Below are positions 57,277 through 64,000 of a DNA stretch of 64,000 nucleotides, one piece after another (position 1 is the first letter of the stretch; every line of letters begins with the position of its first letter). The notes below the pieces were generated by a model, which had not been told where the DNA came from, searched no databases, and saw only the letters and a list, made by a program, of their open reading frames with translations. The position numbers and the translations under genes were made by a program. The DNA comes from Gammaproteobacteria bacterium (GTDB lineage: Bacteria; Pseudomonadota; Gammaproteobacteria; HK1): the NCBI GenBank assembly GCA_021773635.1, contig JAJFJV010000021.1:124001-188000 (forward strand). Reading direction: 5' to 3'.

Positions 57277-57681
57277 ATGGAATATGAATCTGCCCTTATC
57301 CTGACCTTTGTGCTCCTTGTGCTGTTTCAGCTCAAGCACTTTGCCGCGGATTTTCCTTTTCAGTCCCAGTACATGCTGAAAAAAGTTCGTCCCGGCTGGG
57401 ATTTTGCACCACCACTGGCCCTCCACTGTGCTTTCCATGCGGGCCTGACGCTTGCTGTCGTGCTGACATTGAGCGCCAGCCTGTGGTGGCTGGCACTGCT
57501 CGATTTTGTGGTCCACTTCCTCATGGACCGAATCAAGGCAGGCCCCCACTACCTCGGGCGCTATAACGATTTATCCAAAAAGGCCTTCTGGAACTGTCTG
57601 GGCTTCGATCAGATGGTTCATCACCTCACCCACTTTTACATAGTCTGGATGTTGGTAACGACCCGTTATCCGCTGGCCTGA
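57277..57681 (+). CDS. DUF3307-like small membrane protein
   Basis: The 134-residue protein has three hydrophobic segments (about residues 5-22, 50-70 and 72-86) and conserved polar pairs such as LKHFAADFPFQSQYML, LLDFVVHFLMDRIK and FDQMVHHLTHFYIV. The HxxxD and HHLTH patterns recall the DUF3307 family, which sometimes accompanies sulfur or phage-shock genes. The function is unknown. Its 3' end overlaps the convergent lipoprotein gene by 16 bp. Confidence 0.75.
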   Translation: MEYESALILTFVLLVLFQLKHFAADFPFQSQYMLKKVRPGWDFAPPLALHCAFHAGLTLAVVLTLSASLWWLALLDFVVHFLMDRIKAGPHYLGRYNDLSKKAFWNCLGFDQMVHHLTHFYIVWMLVTTRYPLA

Positions 57682-58292
57682 GACCGCCTTGGCAAGACCT
57701 TGCGGGCGTCCCGCACAAAGTCCGCAAAAATTTTGGAGAGGGCCTCCCCAAAGGCCACGGCACTAGCCGAAAATGACTCCCCCGCAGGTATCACCGCTTC
57801 ATATTCTCTGAGTAACAGTGGCACTCCCCGCCGCCCACTTCCCATCTGCTCAAGTTGTAGCTCCAGTCCCACCACGGCCTGTGCGGAGTGACCTGCGAGC
57901 TCACGCTCAAAGCGGAGGATTCGTCCGGTAATAACCATTCCCTGCGAAGCGCCCCCACCCTCGGTGAGCACTATGGGAGAAAAGCCGATGGCACGCAGGT
58001 AGCGGGCAAACCGGCGCTGCAGCAAACGCGGCGGTGGCTCCAGCCAGAAGTGATAATGATGTTGCTGCAAACGGATACCCCGGGAGTCTTCTGTATAGAC
58101 GATGGCCCGCTCACGATGTACCCCGTCACTCTCAAGTACCCTTACCAGCACCGATTCATTCACAACCGGACTGTTCAAAATTGTAGCCGGGAGTAGCGCC
58201 GGAAGCCGGTAAAAGTGGTCCTCCGGGACCGATGCCTGGCGACCACAGGCACCCAGAAGTAGCCCCACCCCCAAAACCAGCAGCTTTTTCAT
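57666..58292 (-). CDS. ABC-type transport auxiliary lipoprotein (PqiC/MlaC-linked type)
   Basis: The 208-residue protein has a lipoprotein signal (LGVGLLLGAC, Cys16) and the DUF330/ABC_trans_aux fold: DHFYRLPALLP, VYTEDSRGIRLQQHHYHFWLEPP (in part) and GLELQLEQMG. Members are periplasmic, outer-membrane-anchored partners of MCE transporters (as PqiC with PqiB). Its ATG overlaps the MCE gene stop by 4 bp, which confirms the partnership. Confidence 0.9.
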   Translation of the reverse strand: MKKLLVLGVGLLLGACGRQASVPEDHFYRLPALLPATILNSPVVNESVLVRVLESDGVHRERAIVYTEDSRGIRLQQHHYHFWLEPPPRLLQRRFARYLRAIGFSPIVLTEGGGASQGMVITGRILRFERELAGHSAQAVVGLELQLEQMGSGRRGVPLLLREYEAVIPAGESFSASAVAFGEALSKIFADFVRDARKVLPRRSQASG

Positions 58293-59296
58293 GGTTGCTC
58301 CTTCCCTTTGGCTTTTTGTGGCGCCGGTGCACTGATGAGCAACGCGGGGTTCTCCCTTATCTGGCGGGTGAATTCATGGATATTTCGGCTGCTGCCCTCG
58401 AGGTGATAACCCACCGTATCCACCCGCTGGGAAAGCGCCGTCAGAACCTGGCGCAGCTCGCCCACCGCCGCGCGCAGATCACCCCGATTCTCACCTACCA
58501 TACCTTCCACATCATCCAACACCCGGTCCGCGTGTTCGCGTACCTGGTGCAGGTCGAGCAACACAGTATGGAGTTTCCCCGAAGCCTGCTCCAGGTTGGC
58601 AAGCGTCGTCTCGGCACTGCTGCGATTTTCCTCCCCCAGCCATTGTTGCAACGAGCTGGCAGCCCCGTTCAGGCGGGTTAATACGCTGCTGGCCTCGGTC
58701 ACCAGATCAGCCCGCTCCAGGTCAGAGCGCAGCTTGTCCATAAGCGGACGCACACTATCCTTGCTAAGCCCGCGCAATTCCTCCAACAGCCCCGTCAACT
58801 GCACCTGCAGGTTGTTGACCAGAGGGCGAATGGTGTCCCGTGACAAGGCACGAAAATCCTCGGCGGTGTCATTGAGCGTGGCGAGGAGATTAACCCGGGG
58901 TGCACTGGCAATTTCGCCACCGGGCGAAAGTATGCGACCACTTTGCCCTCCATGAATCTCAATAGAGATTGCGGACAGCAAACCCGAGGCCGTCATTTTG
59001 GCAACACTATCCTCGGGAATTGGCCAATCGCGACGAATGTGGAGGCGCAACCGGTAGCGCAGGCTTCCCGCCTCGCGTCGCGGCTCAACTTCCTCCACCT
59101 GCCCTACCTGGAAGCCTTCGTAATAGACGGGGGTACCAAACTTTACCCCGGCGACGTTCTGGTAGTAGAGGTAATAGGCATCAGTGGCCCCGGTACGTCC
59201 GCTGAGCAAGGCTATAGCCACCAGCAATGCCGCCAGGCTGATGATCACAAAGCTCCCCACCGCCAGATAATGTATGTTGTCCCGTTTCACGAGCAA
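58289..59296 (-). CDS. MCE/MlaD-family substrate-binding protein
   Basis: The 335-residue protein has one N-terminal membrane helix (about residues 12-33), an MCE domain (about 38-115) with YYQNVAGVKFGTPVYYEGFQVGQV, and a long helical C-terminal region (about 150-310) rich in Leu and charged residues that could form a periplasmic tunnel or needle. MCE proteins carry phospholipids between membranes. It follows the ATPase gene with no gap. Confidence 0.93.
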   Translation of the reverse strand: MLVKRDNIHYLAVGSFVIISLAALLVAIALLSGRTGATDAYYLYYQNVAGVKFGTPVYYEGFQVGQVEEVEPRREAGSLRYRLRLHIRRDWPIPEDSVAKMTASGLLSAISIEIHGGQSGRILSPGGEIASAPRVNLLATLNDTAEDFRALSRDTIRPLVNNLQVQLTGLLEELRGLSKDSVRPLMDKLRSDLERADLVTEASSVLTRLNGAASSLQQWLGEENRSSAETTLANLEQASGKLHTVLLDLHQVREHADRVLDDVEGMVGENRGDLRAAVGELRQVLTALSQRVDTVGYHLEGSSRNIHEFTRQIRENPALLISAPAPQKAKGKEQP

Positions 59297-60124
59297 TTAT
59301 TCTCCAGTGAGGCGCGCAAGGTAGGCGTCGGCATCCAGCTCCTCCACCCGTGGCCGGCGATTAAGCAAGTCCTGGACCCGTGGATTGGGTGAACTCTTTA
59401 CCTTTTCCACCGTATCGCTGATCAATATCCGGCCGCTATCCAGTACGGTAATCCGGTCGGCAATGCGAAAGGCGCTCTCCAGCTCGTGGGTAACCACCAC
59501 GATACTCATGTGCATGGCCTCCCGCAGCCGCAGGATAAGCTCATCCAGTTCCGCCGATACCACCGGGTCGAGCCCCGCCGACGGCTCGTCAAAAAACAGC
59601 AGCTTCGGGTCCATCACGATGGCCCGGGCAAGCGCCGCACGCTTGGTCATTCCGCCCGACAATTGTGACGGCATAAAGTGCTCGAAACCGCCCAGATTTA
59701 CTACCTCCAGCTTCATTCGCGCCATGATCGCCATGGTGCTCTCATCCAGCCGGGTATGTTCGCGCAGCGGCAGGGTGACGTTCTCCCCCACCGTCATGGA
59801 ACTCAGCAGCGCCCCACCCTGAAAGGACACGCCGATTTGCTTGCGCAGTTCCTGCAGCGCCTGTCGATGAATACCCTCCAGCTCCTGCCCGAGCAGGCGG
59901 ATCCGCCCCGAACTAACCCGCCGTAGCCCCAGCAAATGCCGCAGCAAGGTGCTCTTCCCCGAGCCACTACCCCCCATAATGATGTGGATTTCACCGGCCT
60001 CTACCGAAAGGTTGACCCCATCGAGCACCTTGTGGCGACCGTAATGGGCAACCAGATCCTGGACCTCAACTACCGCTTCCGCTCTACCCGCGATATCACT
60101 TTCCTGTGCGTCGGGGGTCACCAT
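59297..60124 (-). CDS. MlaF-like ABC transporter ATPase
   Basis: The 275-residue protein has Walker A GGSGSGKST, a Q-loop, the signature LSGGMTKRAALARAI (the GMxKR form typical of MlaF/Mkl proteins), Walker B LLFFDEPSAGLDP and the H-loop VVVTHE. It energises the MCE lipid transporter. The ATG at 60124 has no Shine-Dalgarno sequence; a palindromic element ends 6 bp upstream and may have displaced it. The N-terminal 20 residues before VEVQDLVAHYG are not conserved. Confidence 0.95.
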   Translation of the reverse strand: MVTPDAQESDIAGRAEAVVEVQDLVAHYGRHKVLDGVNLSVEAGEIHIIMGGSGSGKSTLLRHLLGLRRVSSGRIRLLGQELEGIHRQALQELRKQIGVSFQGGALLSSMTVGENVTLPLREHTRLDESTMAIMARMKLEVVNLGGFEHFMPSQLSGGMTKRAALARAIVMDPKLLFFDEPSAGLDPVVSAELDELILRLREAMHMSIVVVTHELESAFRIADRITVLDSGRILISDTVEKVKSSPNPRVQDLLNRRPRVEELDADAYLARLTGE

Positions 60125-60130
60125 GAGGCG

Positions 60131-60293
60131 AGGAGCCTGTCTGATTTAGGCGCTCGTAGCGAGGGGAAGCCATATTGAGACAGATTTTTTGGTCGTTTGA
60201 GGATAATAGTCAGTCTATTAGACGAAAAGGAGCAGAAAATATGGCCAATACGGCTTTTCCGCAGCAGGGCAGTCCTAAGTCTGGCAGACTCCT
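60131..60293. mobile_element. 163-bp full-length imperfect palindrome (MITE/REP-like) inside the MCE operon
   Basis: The ends AGGAGCCTGTCTGATTTAGG (60131-60150) and CCTAAGTCTGGCAGACTCCT (60274-60293) are inverted repeats matching at 16 of 20 positions. The inner arms continue (AAGCCATATTG against AAGCCGTATTG; ATTTTTTG against ATTTTCTG) to an apical TAATAG-TCAGT-CTATTA exactly at the centre (60212). Most arm differences are transitions that keep G-U pairing. No target duplication is seen and no coding sequence is credible. It lies between the permease stop and the ATPase start. Confidence 0.8.
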
Positions 60294-61093
60294 TATCGGT
60301 TGAGAAACCAGGTAAACACCATATCGGCAATGACAATACCCGAAATGGCCAGTACCACGGAGCGGGTGGTCGCCCGCCCCACTCCCTCGGCTCCACCGCT
60401 TACCGAGAAACCGTTGGCGACGCCAACGAGGGTGACTATGGTGGCAAAGACACAGCTCTTGGTGAGCCCCTGCAGGACATCCCCCGTCTTGAGCACGCTG
60501 ATAACCCGATCGGCGTAGGCCCCGTAGCTGATACCGAGGTCCAAGGCGCTGTAGACCGCGCCGCCAAGCAAACCGGCAAAATCCGCCATAACGGTTAGCG
60601 CCGGCAGCATAACCAGCATGGCCAGCAACACCGGCGAAACCAGGTAGCGAACCGGCTGGATCCCCATCACCCGCAAGGCATCGATCTCCTCGGAAACCAC
60701 CATCGTGCCAATGCGCGCCGCGAGGGCGGAACCCGTGCGTCCGGCGACCACAATCCCGGTGATCAGCGGCCCGAATTCCCGGGTTATGGAAAGTGCAATC
60801 CCGATGACCACCTGGGACTCGGCGCCAAAAGTACGCAGCGTGTGAATTCCCTGGATGGCCAGCATGATGCCGATGGAGAAGGAAAGCAGAAAGACAATGG
60901 GGATAGCGTTAACCCCGGCGCGCATCATCTCGGAAAACACCGCGCTCACCCGCACCGGTTGTCGCTGAAAACTGCCAACAAAGAGCCAATAAAGGCTCTC
61001 TGCCAATAAAGCCGAGAGATAACCTGCCTCGGCTACCAGGCCAAGGGTACGCCTTCCAAGCTGTTCCACCCACATAAGGCGGGCCTCAGCCAT
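60293..61093 (-). CDS. MlaE-family ABC transporter permease
   Basis: The 266-residue protein has about five membrane helices and the family core ITGIVVAGRTGSALAARIGTM followed by EEIDALRVMGIQPVRYLVSP. The start is placed at the ATG at 61093 (MAEARLMWVEQLGRR), which overlaps the STAS stop by 8 bp and gives the normal MlaE length; an upstream ATG at 61198 would add 35 unconserved residues inside the STAS gene. It is the lipid-transport permease of the operon. Confidence 0.94.
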   Translation of the reverse strand: MAEARLMWVEQLGRRTLGLVAEAGYLSALLAESLYWLFVGSFQRQPVRVSAVFSEMMRAGVNAIPIVFLLSFSIGIMLAIQGIHTLRTFGAESQVVIGIALSITREFGPLITGIVVAGRTGSALAARIGTMVVSEEIDALRVMGIQPVRYLVSPVLLAMLVMLPALTVMADFAGLLGGAVYSALDLGISYGAYADRVISVLKTGDVLQGLTKSCVFATIVTLVGVANGFSVSGGAEGVGRATTRSVVLAISGIVIADMVFTWFLNR

Positions 61094-61418
61094 CGTCCGC
61101 GATCCGCGCATCCAGATCAGAATGAATGGGAAAGACCTGATCGAGGCGGGCCAGACGCAAGACGCTGAGCGCCGCTTCACTGACCCCGATAAGGCCAAAC
61201 TTCAGGCCCTCTTTCTTGGCCACCTGGTATCCCTCCACCAGGCTGGCGACACCGGAGCTATCAATATAGGCCACCTCCGAGAGATCCACCAACAGATCGC
61301 TCCTTTGTTCCAGGAACTGGAGAATCAATGCCCGCGCCTCGGGAGAACGGGCGAGATCCACATCACCCCGCAACTCCACCACGGCATAACCCCCTTCTGT
61401 TCTGTGTCCAAAGCCCAC
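61086..61418 (-). CDS. STAS-domain protein (anti-sigma-factor-antagonist/MlaB-like)
   Basis: The 110-residue protein is a single STAS domain. AYIDSSGVASLVEGYQVA carries the DSSG phospho-acceptor (S55) of SpoIIAA-type switches. In E. coli the Mla complex includes MlaB, a STAS subunit bound to MlaF, so this is probably its equivalent, overlapping the permease gene. The presence of S55 and an adjacent SpoIIE phosphatase suggests it can be reversibly phosphorylated, which MlaB is not known to be. Confidence 0.9.
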   Translation of the reverse strand: MGFGHRTEGGYAVVELRGDVDLARSPEARALILQFLEQRSDLLVDLSEVAYIDSSGVASLVEGYQVAKKEGLKFGLIGVSEAALSVLRLARLDQVFPIHSDLDARIADDG

Positions 61419-61433
61419 TCTATTCTCCCTGCT

Positions 61434-63131
61434 TCATGCGATCCGCTTTCTCAAAGTGAGACAATTTCCACATCCCTGTGGCGTCGTATCAAAAACCCAG
61501 TCGTCCATTAATTCATCAATAAAGCGGGTGCCAAGCCCGCCCGGACGCAGCTCATCCAGTGGCCGCGGCCGAATCTGTGAGGGGTCCACCGGCGCAGCCC
61601 AATCCTTGAGCACACAAACCAGCTCCCCGTCATTATTATGCATCTCGAGCAGGATCTCACCGGCACAATCTCCTTGGTAAGCGTGCTGCATGATATTCAT
61701 ACAAGCCTCATTAACCGCCAGCACGATTTCCCCCGCCACCTCTGCGCTACAACCGGCCTGTAGTGCCGCCGACTTGAGCTCGGTCCGAAGCCCATGCAAG
61801 CACTCGGGGTCGGCGCTGAATCGCCGCTCAAAAAGCTTTTCACCCAGCCCGGTATCCTGACTCTCGATCAACATCATGGTGATGTCATCCCGCTGGCGCG
61901 CCCCGGGACGCCGAATCTCCGCGACAATATTTTGCAGGCGTTCACAGGATTCCAGTTCTGACATGCGCTCGATCAGGGTGATCAATCCCGACACGTCCAG
62001 TGGCAGGTGCTCCGCAGTCAGGCTCTCGGTGACACCATCGGTAAAGAGGTACAGGCTGCCGCCCGCGAGGGAAATTTCACTCACCGGAAATACCGTCTCC
62101 GGTACCACACCCAGCGGCGGCGCACCGGCGGGAATCTCGGAAAAGCTGCCATCGACCCCGCGTTGCAGTGGCGGTTGATGGCCGGCATTGGAAAAGCAGA
62201 CCCGCCCGCTTTCCGGCTCGATAAAACCGGAGACAATCGTGACAAACATGCCGTGGGATGCGGTCTCGCACAGCTCCCGGTTAACTCGCGTCAACAACTC
62301 GCCCGGATCACTAAAATCCCGTGCCAGACAACGCAGCAAGCTGCTGGTCTGTGCCATCAACAGGGCCGAATTTATGCCCTTTCCCGAGACGTCCGCAAGG
62401 TTGAAATATATCCGTCCGTTGTCCAGCGGAAAGAAGTCGTAAAAATCCCCGGAGACCTCGTAGGCAGGGAAATTGACACCATTTACCGGGAAGTCTGAAT
62501 CACAGGACGGTGGCAATAAATGTCGCTGAATATCCCCCGCCAGTTCCAGCTCCCGCTTCAGGCGTTCATGCTCCACCAGCGAGGCGGCCATGCGCGCATT
62601 GTGGATGGCCAGCGCCGCCGCCGATGCCAGCACGCTGGCCAGTGCCTCATCACGCGGGTTGAACAATCCATCTCCAGTCCGCTTGTTGACCAGTTCCAGC
62701 ACACCGACACATTCCCCACGCACGCTCAGGGGGGCGCATAACAGTGAGCGGGTGGAGAAGCCTGAGCTGTGGTCGATGGTGCCGCTGAAATCGTGGCTAC
62801 GGCGTACGTCCCGAACCATCTGGCAGGCCTGTTCGCGGACACACTTGCCGACAATCCCCTCGGAAACATCCATCCGTAGTCCCGAGATATCGACCGGACC
62901 AACACACTTGTAACAAACCAGTTCCCGGTTTTCGTTCTCGAGGAGAAACAGGGACGCTGCCTCGGCATCCATGTACGCCATAAAGCGCTCTATGGCGGTC
63001 TGCAGGGTCTCATCAAGATTTAGTGAACTGGCAAATTCCTGAATCAGCTCGGCCAGCAGGGCAAGCTGCTCCACGGCAACCTGATCCGGGTCCTCACGAA
63101 TCAGACGCAGATCGGGTCGCTTCGCGCTCAC
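61434..63131 (-). CDS. GAF-SpoIIE phosphatase-HATPase fusion (partner-switching regulator)
   Basis: The 565-residue protein has a GAF sensor domain (about 30-180, LDETLQTAIERFMAYMDAEAAS), a SpoIIE-type PP2C phosphatase (about 200-405, YEVSGDFYDFFPL and LADVSGKGINSALLMAQ supply metal-binding Asp residues), and a C-terminal RsbW-like HATPase (about 430-560, N-box VNEACMNIMQHAY, G-box GGLGTRFIDELMDDW). It thus joins the phosphatase and kinase of a partner switch in one chain. It lies 15 bp upstream of the STAS gene, its likely substrate. Confidence 0.93.
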   Translation of the reverse strand: MSAKRPDLRLIREDPDQVAVEQLALLAELIQEFASSLNLDETLQTAIERFMAYMDAEAASLFLLENENRELVCYKCVGPVDISGLRMDVSEGIVGKCVREQACQMVRDVRRSHDFSGTIDHSSGFSTRSLLCAPLSVRGECVGVLELVNKRTGDGLFNPRDEALASVLASAAALAIHNARMAASLVEHERLKRELELAGDIQRHLLPPSCDSDFPVNGVNFPAYEVSGDFYDFFPLDNGRIYFNLADVSGKGINSALLMAQTSSLLRCLARDFSDPGELLTRVNRELCETASHGMFVTIVSGFIEPESGRVCFSNAGHQPPLQRGVDGSFSEIPAGAPPLGVVPETVFPVSEISLAGGSLYLFTDGVTESLTAEHLPLDVSGLITLIERMSELESCERLQNIVAEIRRPGARQRDDITMMLIESQDTGLGEKLFERRFSADPECLHGLRTELKSAALQAGCSAEVAGEIVLAVNEACMNIMQHAYQGDCAGEILLEMHNNDGELVCVLKDWAAPVDPSQIRPRPLDELRPGGLGTRFIDELMDDWVFDTTPQGCGNCLTLRKRIA

Positions 63132-63274: not shown

Positions 63275-63577
63275 CTAGCTATCTTCCGCTGCCTTTCGAG
63301 CATTAAAGGCCGCCAGTTGCTCGGCTGTTGCCTCCGTTTGGTAGCGCTTTTTCCATTCCCCGTAAGGCATACCGTAAATTGCCTCCCTGGCCTCATCCTC
63401 CTTCATATCCACCCGCTGCTCTTTGGCGGCGGCCAGGTACCACTTGGCCAGGCAGTTGCGACAAAAACCTGCGAGGTTCATCAGCTCAATATTCTGTACC
63501 TCTGGATGCTCCTGCAGATAACCCACAAGGGTACGGAAGGCCGCAGCCTCCAGTTCGATACGGGTTTGCTCATCCAC
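63275..63577 (-). CDS. DUF1244-family protein
   Basis: A small, about 100-residue protein with the family core VQNIELMNLAGFCRNCLAKWY and IYGMPYGEWKKRYQTEAT. The two cysteines in FCRNC suggest metal binding or redox; the function is unknown. The GTG at 63577 is chosen as the start because AGGAGG lies 7 bases upstream; ATG at 63649 would add 24 residues without similarity. It is 143 bp upstream of the SpoIIE gene. Confidence 0.9.
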   Translation of the reverse strand: MDEQTRIELEAAAFRTLVGYLQEHPEVQNIELMNLAGFCRNCLAKWYLAAAKEQRVDMKEDEAREAIYGMPYGEWKKRYQTEATAEQLAAFNARKAAEDS

Positions 63578-63690
63578 GTCCACACCTCCTGATATCCCAG
63601 TCTGGAGGCGATTGTAACAGGCTGGAAAGCGCGCATGGCAGATCGCCACGGGGCGTCAGCAATAACGAAGGAGGGGTACCTCTGTCGACT

Positions 63691-64000
63691 TTAGTCCCAG
63701 TCGATGACCGCGGTGACCGAATTTCCCTTGCCATGGTAGGTGAGTGAGTGGCACAGCGAACGCATCAGCGGAATACCTCGACCCGAGAGCGCAAGGTTGT
63801 CAGATGCCTTCCCCCGCAGCATGGCAAGATCAAAGCCCGGACCACTATCCTTGAAACTGATGCTCAGCCTGCCACCTGGCCCGTGGGCGACATGCCGTAA
63901 TTTGATCTCCAATCGGCCGCATTTCAGGCTCGAGAGCCGCTGCTCCCGCTCCGTATAGTAACGGGCGAAGCCCTCGGCGGAACTCTTCATCCGTGAATCC
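63691..64000 (-). CDS. C-terminal HATPase fragment, probably of a response regulator-SpoIIE-HATPase protein (cut by window edge)
   Basis: About 103 residues are visible and the frame is open to the right edge. They end a GHKL ATPase: the G1 box is FKDSGPGFD and the G2 box SGRGIPLMRSL; the N-box lies beyond the edge. The segment DSRMKSSAEGFARYYTEREQRLSSL resembles the linker seen in fused response regulator/SpoIIE/HATPase proteins. It may be a second partner-switching regulator beside the MCE operon. Confidence 0.75.
   Translation of the reverse strand, partial: DSRMKSSAEGFARYYTEREQRLSSLKCGRLEIKLRHVAHGPGGRLSISFKDSGPGFDLAMLRGKASDNLALSGRGIPLMRSLCHSLTYHGKGNSVTAVIDWD

Follow-up and report, generated by a model that had tools for sequence, protein, structure and literature searches.

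Co-occurrence of a partner-switching module with an Mla/Mpc-type lipid transporter and its MlaF ATPase in Gammaproteobacteria

The Mla system of Escherichia coli (MlaFEDB together with MlaC and MlaA) combines the permease MlaE, the ATPase MlaF and an MCE protein with a separate small STAS protein, MlaB, the helical face of which binds MlaF. Residue T52 is central in that interface and the substitution T52E weakens binding (Kolich 2020; PMC7367683). Phosphorylation of MlaB has been proposed, without an enzyme, in two studies (Thong 2016, PMC5016091; Kolich 2020, PMC7367683), in the second of which the regulation of MlaB is termed an open question. Here we describe a locus in a window of 64 000 nucleotides (positions 124,001 to 188,000 of contig JAJFJV010000021.1, assembly GCA_021773635.1, from a gammaproteobacterium) in which genes for a SpoIIE phosphatase domain, a HATPase kinase domain and a STAS protein precede those of a lipid ABC transporter. 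The linkage of STAS, kinase, phosphatase and transporter is real and widespread and is probably functional, and we consider it likely that this partner-switching module controls the inner-membrane MlaFED (plus PqiC-like lipoprotein), or Mpc-like, lipid ABC transporter through a phospho-switched STAS protein acting on MlaF.

The described relative of the transporter found here, which we call type a, is the Mla-Pqi chimeric (Mpc) system of Brucella (PMC12436622), where MlaE, MlaF, a long MCE protein and a PqiC-like lipoprotein are likewise encoded in one operon and a STAS domain is part of the system. The long MCE protein, the PqiC-like lipoprotein and the lack of MlaC and MlaA set type a apart from E. 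coli Mla, but the presence of MlaE, MlaF, an MCE protein and a free small STAS protein is common to both. The STAS domain of Mpc is joined N-terminally to MlaE, whereas here STAS is a free protein accompanied by a kinase and a phosphatase, neither of which is linked to Mla in E. coli; moreover E. coli MlaB stops short of the final strand and helix seen in full STAS proteins. We note that long MlaE open reading frames (ORFs) of about 370–400 aa with an N-terminal STAS-like extension are common (L095-L114); they occur with MlaF, often also with MCE and lipoprotein genes, and with no kinase or phosphatase, and the MlaF tail in this Mpc-like class differs from that of the module-linked proteins discussed below. 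The regulatory genes belong to the same families, and have the same fold, as RsbU/RsbW/RsbV and SpoIIE/SpoIIAB/SpoIIAA of Bacillus, which comprise a PP2C phosphatase, a GHKL serine kinase and a STAS antagonist with the sequence D-S-S-G. In contrast to the Bacillus switches, the operon here lacks a sigma-factor gene, an ABC ATPase is the proposed client, and the phosphatase and kinase of the window form a single chain. Gammaproteobacterial partner switches unconnected with sporulation include the HsbR-HsbA and SypE-SypA pairs, in which SpoIIE and HATPase domains also act on a stand-alone STAS protein, although their outputs are RpoS, HsbD or biofilm. To our knowledge no transporter genes accompany either pair.

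All six genes that a first, sequence-only reading had placed in a minus-strand run at 57666-63131 are present there as judged by Pfam and NCBIfam matches. The first (61434..63131) encodes a 565 aa GAF–SpoIIE(PP2C)–HATPase_c_2 protein (SpoIIE 136.8 bits, HATPase_c_2 92.2 bits), which has RsbW and Rv1364c as relatives in the PDB and is predicted from its domains to unite in one chain a sensor, a putative phosphatase for phosphorylated STAS (STAS-P) and a serine kinase of the RsbW/SpoIIAB type. It is followed by genes for a 110 aa STAS protein with the motif Y-I-D-S-S-G (61086..61418; Pfam STAS, 59 bits), an Mpc-like MlaE-family permease (60293..61093; PF02405, 239 bits) that falls in the type-a clade of the tree, an MlaF-family ATPase (59297..60124) whose best NCBIfam match is MlaF and which clade, co-occurrence and tail comparison assign to a STAS-linked group, an MlaD-type MCE protein of 335 aa (58289..59296; PF02470, 46 bits) that is elongated relative to the 159 aa canonical MlaD of the same genome, and a 208 aa lipoprotein of the PqiC/ABC_trans_aux type with lipobox LGAC (57666..58292). 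The lipoprotein scores 17.6 bits against PF03886 (ABC_trans_aux, PqiC-type) in the window, below the cut-off of 26, which is passed by 8/9 orthologues tested, and its lipobox Cys16 is invariant (26/26). The joint presence of MlaE, MlaF and MCE genes identifies a lipid ABC transporter of the Mla/Mpc type, and the PqiC-like lipoprotein and long MCE protein in an operon with neither MlaC nor MlaA are those of Mpc; no MlaC match was found within the locus and no MlaA among the Pfam matches of its genes. The genome carries a separate, ordinary mlaFEDCB operon elsewhere.

The start of mlaE, an ATG at about 61,093, overlaps the STAS stop codon (ATGGCTGA); a TTG at 61,198 was entertained as the mlaE start and rejected. 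The run is as tight as had been supposed everywhere except between mlaE and mlaF, where a spacer of 168 bp (60125-60292) intervenes. Two sister genomes keep the whole gene order and have no such gap, the two genes overlapping there, and the spacer is possibly an internal promoter or an insertion. The description of the regulator as fused into the operon holds for SpoIIE with HATPase only, the STAS and transporter genes being separate ORFs. The same separation of STAS holds in every linked relative, no fusion of STAS to MlaE being found among the linked loci, and natural fusions of this STAS to HATPase or to MlaF were sought and none was found.

The SpoIIE–STAS–MlaE order is not confined to this genome but recurs widely. 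In a survey of 149 genomes of the class, spread evenly and broadly over its families, a profile of the STAS family separates two groups, one of 23 genomes with scores of at least 133 bits and the rest with at most 61 bits, giving 23/149 carriers. A HATPase is encoded directly upstream of STAS in 23/23 of these, SpoIIE is adjacent in every case (on the same strand in 22 and divergently transcribed in 1), and mlaE or mlaF is the next gene after STAS in 21/23. A further 80 titled loci were retrieved by the STAS motif and are therefore a biased sample; among the matches listed, HATPase lies directly upstream in 79/80, and the next gene is mlaE in 59/80 and mlaF in 6/80. The complete order SpoIIE-HATPase-STAS-MlaE-MlaF-MCE-lipoprotein is found across many families, and in another class of the same phylum it is present in full in one locus (L215), with the module alone on a short contig in a second (L216). 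The sensor domain of the phosphatase varies by lineage, being GAF in some and HDOD in others. Thiohalobacter thiocyanaticus Hrh1 and Methylohalomonas lacus HMT1 are cultured carriers.

The residues on which a partner switch depends are well preserved. The DSSG of the STAS protein is intact, as the sequence-only reading had reported, and in the alignment the DS of SpoIIAA falls on D53-S54; the equivalent of SpoIIAA Ser58 is S54, the serine directly after Asp53, and not S55 as that reading had it. YIDSSG is invariant in 27/27 relatives, the N-box Glu/Asn and the G-box PGGLG of the kinase are invariant in the aligned HATPase relatives, and the PP2C metal ligands of the SpoIIE domain (GD, D, DG and DD) are intact and conserved in relatives, so that both GHKL boxes, the metal-binding aspartates of SpoIIE and the DS phosphoacceptor are all in place. 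S54 occupies the position of T52 in E. coli MlaB. On the side of the ATPase, the MlaF of the window has a C-terminal extension ending in DADxYLxRLT, and Tyr-x3-Leu is invariant in the tails of linked MlaF proteins (33/33). E. coli MlaF has a comparable extension with Tyr-x3-Leu, and its residues Tyr261, Leu265 and Leu266 pack on MlaB (PMC7367683); a similar [Y/F]-x3-L tail is present in most canonical MlaF proteins, whereas the MlaF partners of STAS-MlaE fusions are without the motif.

We propose that the STAS protein is the equivalent of MlaB. When unphosphorylated it would bind MlaF at the helical subdomain and the C-terminal tail, like E. coli MlaB, and the STAS-bound ATPase would stay assembled and active. 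The HATPase domain would phosphorylate S54, inside the predicted MlaF interface, whereupon STAS-P would be released and transport would cease; the kinase may also hold unphosphorylated STAS. A signal perceived at the cytoplasmic GAF domain here, or at HDOD elsewhere, would turn on the SpoIIE phosphatase, STAS-P would be dephosphorylated and transport would resume. In this scheme we infer the STAS–MlaF binding, the phosphorylation of STAS, the sign of the control and phospholipid as the cargo, and lipid traffic could be gated by a signal through STAS switching, much as the sequence-only reading had suggested.

An indirect indication of the STAS partner comes from the distribution of MlaF. The module is carried by two types of locus, type a with the order MlaE-MlaF-MCE-PqiC-like and type b with the order MlaF-MlaE-MlaD-MlaA-MlaC, the MlaA of type b having been identified by Pfam in three loci. 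The MlaF proteins of types a and b share 63 % pairwise identity, and type b shares 38 % with canonical MlaF; for MlaE the corresponding values are 32 % and 43 %. In the careful tree the MlaF proteins of both types form a single clade (support 99/98), whereas an equivalent clade for MlaE is rejected by the approximately unbiased (AU) test (p = 0.0006). From this discordance it appears that the ATPase is common to both module-linked types and the permeases are not, the ATPase travelling with the module. With a profile threshold of at least 400 bits, 25/149 genomes carry the linked MlaF clade, every one of the 23 STAS carriers among them. The co-occurrence is far beyond chance (hypergeometric P = 5e-25, with the 149 genomes treated as independent and shared ancestry ignored), and of the two genomes that carry the clade without STAS, one (G027) is cut by a contig edge at the locus and the other (G078) is a true exception.

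Several genomes in which the genes are separated are particularly informative. Two of them (G121 and G059) have SpoIIE-HATPase-STAS alone at one site and, elsewhere, a linked-clade MlaF with MlaE, MlaD and MlaC and no mlaB, and a third (G038) has SpoIIE-HATPase-STAS-MlaF at one site and MlaE-D-C without F or B at another. In G052 (L045:89-12564) only one MlaF gene, of the linked clade and beside both permeases, is present in a cluster that contains the module, two SpoIIE genes, a transporter of type a and the MlaE-D-C genes of a type b set, and three genomes (G122, G098 and G092) encode transporters of both types with a single STAS protein. None of the type b loci yielded a second STAS, whereas an MlaB-like STAS was seen in 17/20 canonical operons fetched. 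An action of STAS on MlaF would lead one to expect such patterns, which operon hitch-hiking does not readily explain. We suggest, tentatively and with the odds somewhat against it, that one phospho-switched STAS protein and a dedicated ATPase clade may form an exchangeable control-and-motor unit for two distantly related lipid transporters, an Mpc-like needle and MlaEDAC, in the same cell; if so, one cytoplasmic signal would set lipid flow through both together. Mycobacterial MceG offers a parallel to what G052 suggests, namely that a single clade of ATPase may power two or more MCE transporters, although MceG has no partner switch and belongs to a different phylum and architecture.

A number of observations weigh against control of the transporter by the module. 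The phylogenetic case is affected by two of them: in the smaller careful tree the alternative that groups type b MlaF with canonical MlaF is only borderline rejected (AU p = 0.0585), and in a larger, quick MlaF tree the AU test did not reject it, the free search there being unconverged and the constrained tree scoring better. The exceptional genome G078 (L235) has a type a transporter, preceded by a LemA-family gene, with no STAS, kinase or phosphatase, so the transporter can work alone, and the arrangement elsewhere could be an old operon held by shared inheritance or block transfer with no functional coupling of its parts. We regard this as very improbable, given that the association outlasts both the loss of synteny (G121, G059 and G038) and the replacement of the permease (types a and b), and that module-only genomes still carry the linked MlaF clade.

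The remaining observations concern the STAS protein itself. Its AlphaFold2 model (mean predicted local distance difference test score, pLDDT, 87) has as its best fold match the RsbV of an RsbV/RsbW complex, with MlaB weaker; template-modelling (TM) scores are about 0.8–0.87 to RsbV/SpoIIAA as against 0.5–0.66 to MlaB. By sequence it scores 72 bits to an RsbV-like protein as against 23 to MlaB, and it fails the NCBIfam model mlaB_1 (NF033618; 27.7 bits, cut-off 90). Furthermore, some of the listed loci have the module with no mla genes within about 6.5 kb. The kinship with RsbV/SpoIIAA and the module-only loci, together with the control of RpoS by HsbR-HsbA in Pseudomonas aeruginosa (PMC6482189) and a receiver-SpoIIE-HATPase gene just upstream here, would suit a transcriptional partner switch of the ordinary kind, with a sigma factor such as RpoS as its target and the operon shared only for co-expression or autoregulation. 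This seems to us unlikely: the nearest sigma-factor gene (Sigma70_r2) is about 26 kb away, none is in the operon, the five clear sigma-factor matches of the genome all lie elsewhere, and such a switch leaves unexplained both the tracking of STAS by the MlaF clade over unlinked loci and two permease types and the missing mlaB. At the level of sequence comparison, the co-segregation of the MlaF clade across the two permease types and the absence of mlaB from linked operons favour the ATPase over a sigma regulator as the probable STAS partner.

A different difficulty is that canonical MlaB, as in E. coli, retains a Ser/Thr at the position of S54 with no linked kinase, and that T52A in E. coli blocks ATPase activity without dissociating MlaB (PMC5016091); conservation of S54 alone is therefore not proof of phosphorylation. 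MlaB is also needed for the stability of E. coli MlaF, and T52A affects catalysis and not binding (PMC5016091, PMC7367683), all of which would be compatible with STAS as a constitutive structural MlaB subunit, the HATPase and SpoIIE domains acting mainly elsewhere or setting only the amount of STAS, and phosphorylation not gating transport. We doubt that this is so, however, as the HATPase gene adjoins that for STAS in all of the 23 sampled genomes and all but one of the 80 listed loci, with kinase and phosphatase residues intact, and so strict a pairing implies dependence of kinase and substrate on one another.

We regard the locus as a new combination of two known kinds of system, a partner switch and an Mla/Mpc-type transporter. 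Neither an enzyme for MlaB phosphoregulation nor the control of any Mla or MCE transporter by a partner switch was found described in the open-access literature, many subscription papers and preprints lying outside it, and the linkage, of which the sequence-only reading also knew no description, was likewise not found in the open-access literature searched. A natural and widespread system in which kinase, phosphatase, STAS and transporter are co-encoded makes the idea of MlaB phosphorylation directly testable, and G078 offers a natural test case for loss of the regulator. If the proposed control is real, it would be the regulator that has been missing from a well-studied system of membrane maintenance. 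Partner switching would then reach beyond sigma factors to the motor of an ABC transporter as a direct target, and lipid homeostasis at the outer membrane would be tied to what GAF or HDOD domains sense in the cytoplasm.

Upstream of the GAF-SpoIIE gene lies a gene for a DUF1244 protein (63275..63649, minus strand; PF06844), which is at the same place in two other genomes (G001 and G002) and conserved in the genus. Beyond it, on the same strand, is the C-terminal end of the 575 aa receiver-SpoIIE-HATPase protein (63691..64000, continuing beyond the window; same place in G001 and G002). This gene (L003:8691-10418) has an HsbR-like architecture and is found two genes upstream of GAF-SpoIIE in 3/3 genomes of the genus; its product may add a two-component signal as second input to this STAS protein or may act on another STAS (contig C18). 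Farther upstream and beyond the window (L003:14401-18918) are a 1505 aa repetitive, adhesin-like ORF and a FecR-like neighbour, both named by sequence impression. A weaker HATPase-STAS pair occurs in genomes of another class (f173), possibly Zetaproteobacteria, which were left out of the member counts; mla or MCE genes are near in only 3/8 loci fetched (L219, L225 and L226), and the pair adjoins ubiD-like genes in at least two. In those three loci the diverged pair is either 3 kb away from an mlaFEDC operon that lacks mlaB or situated downstream of a divergent MlaE-MCE operon.

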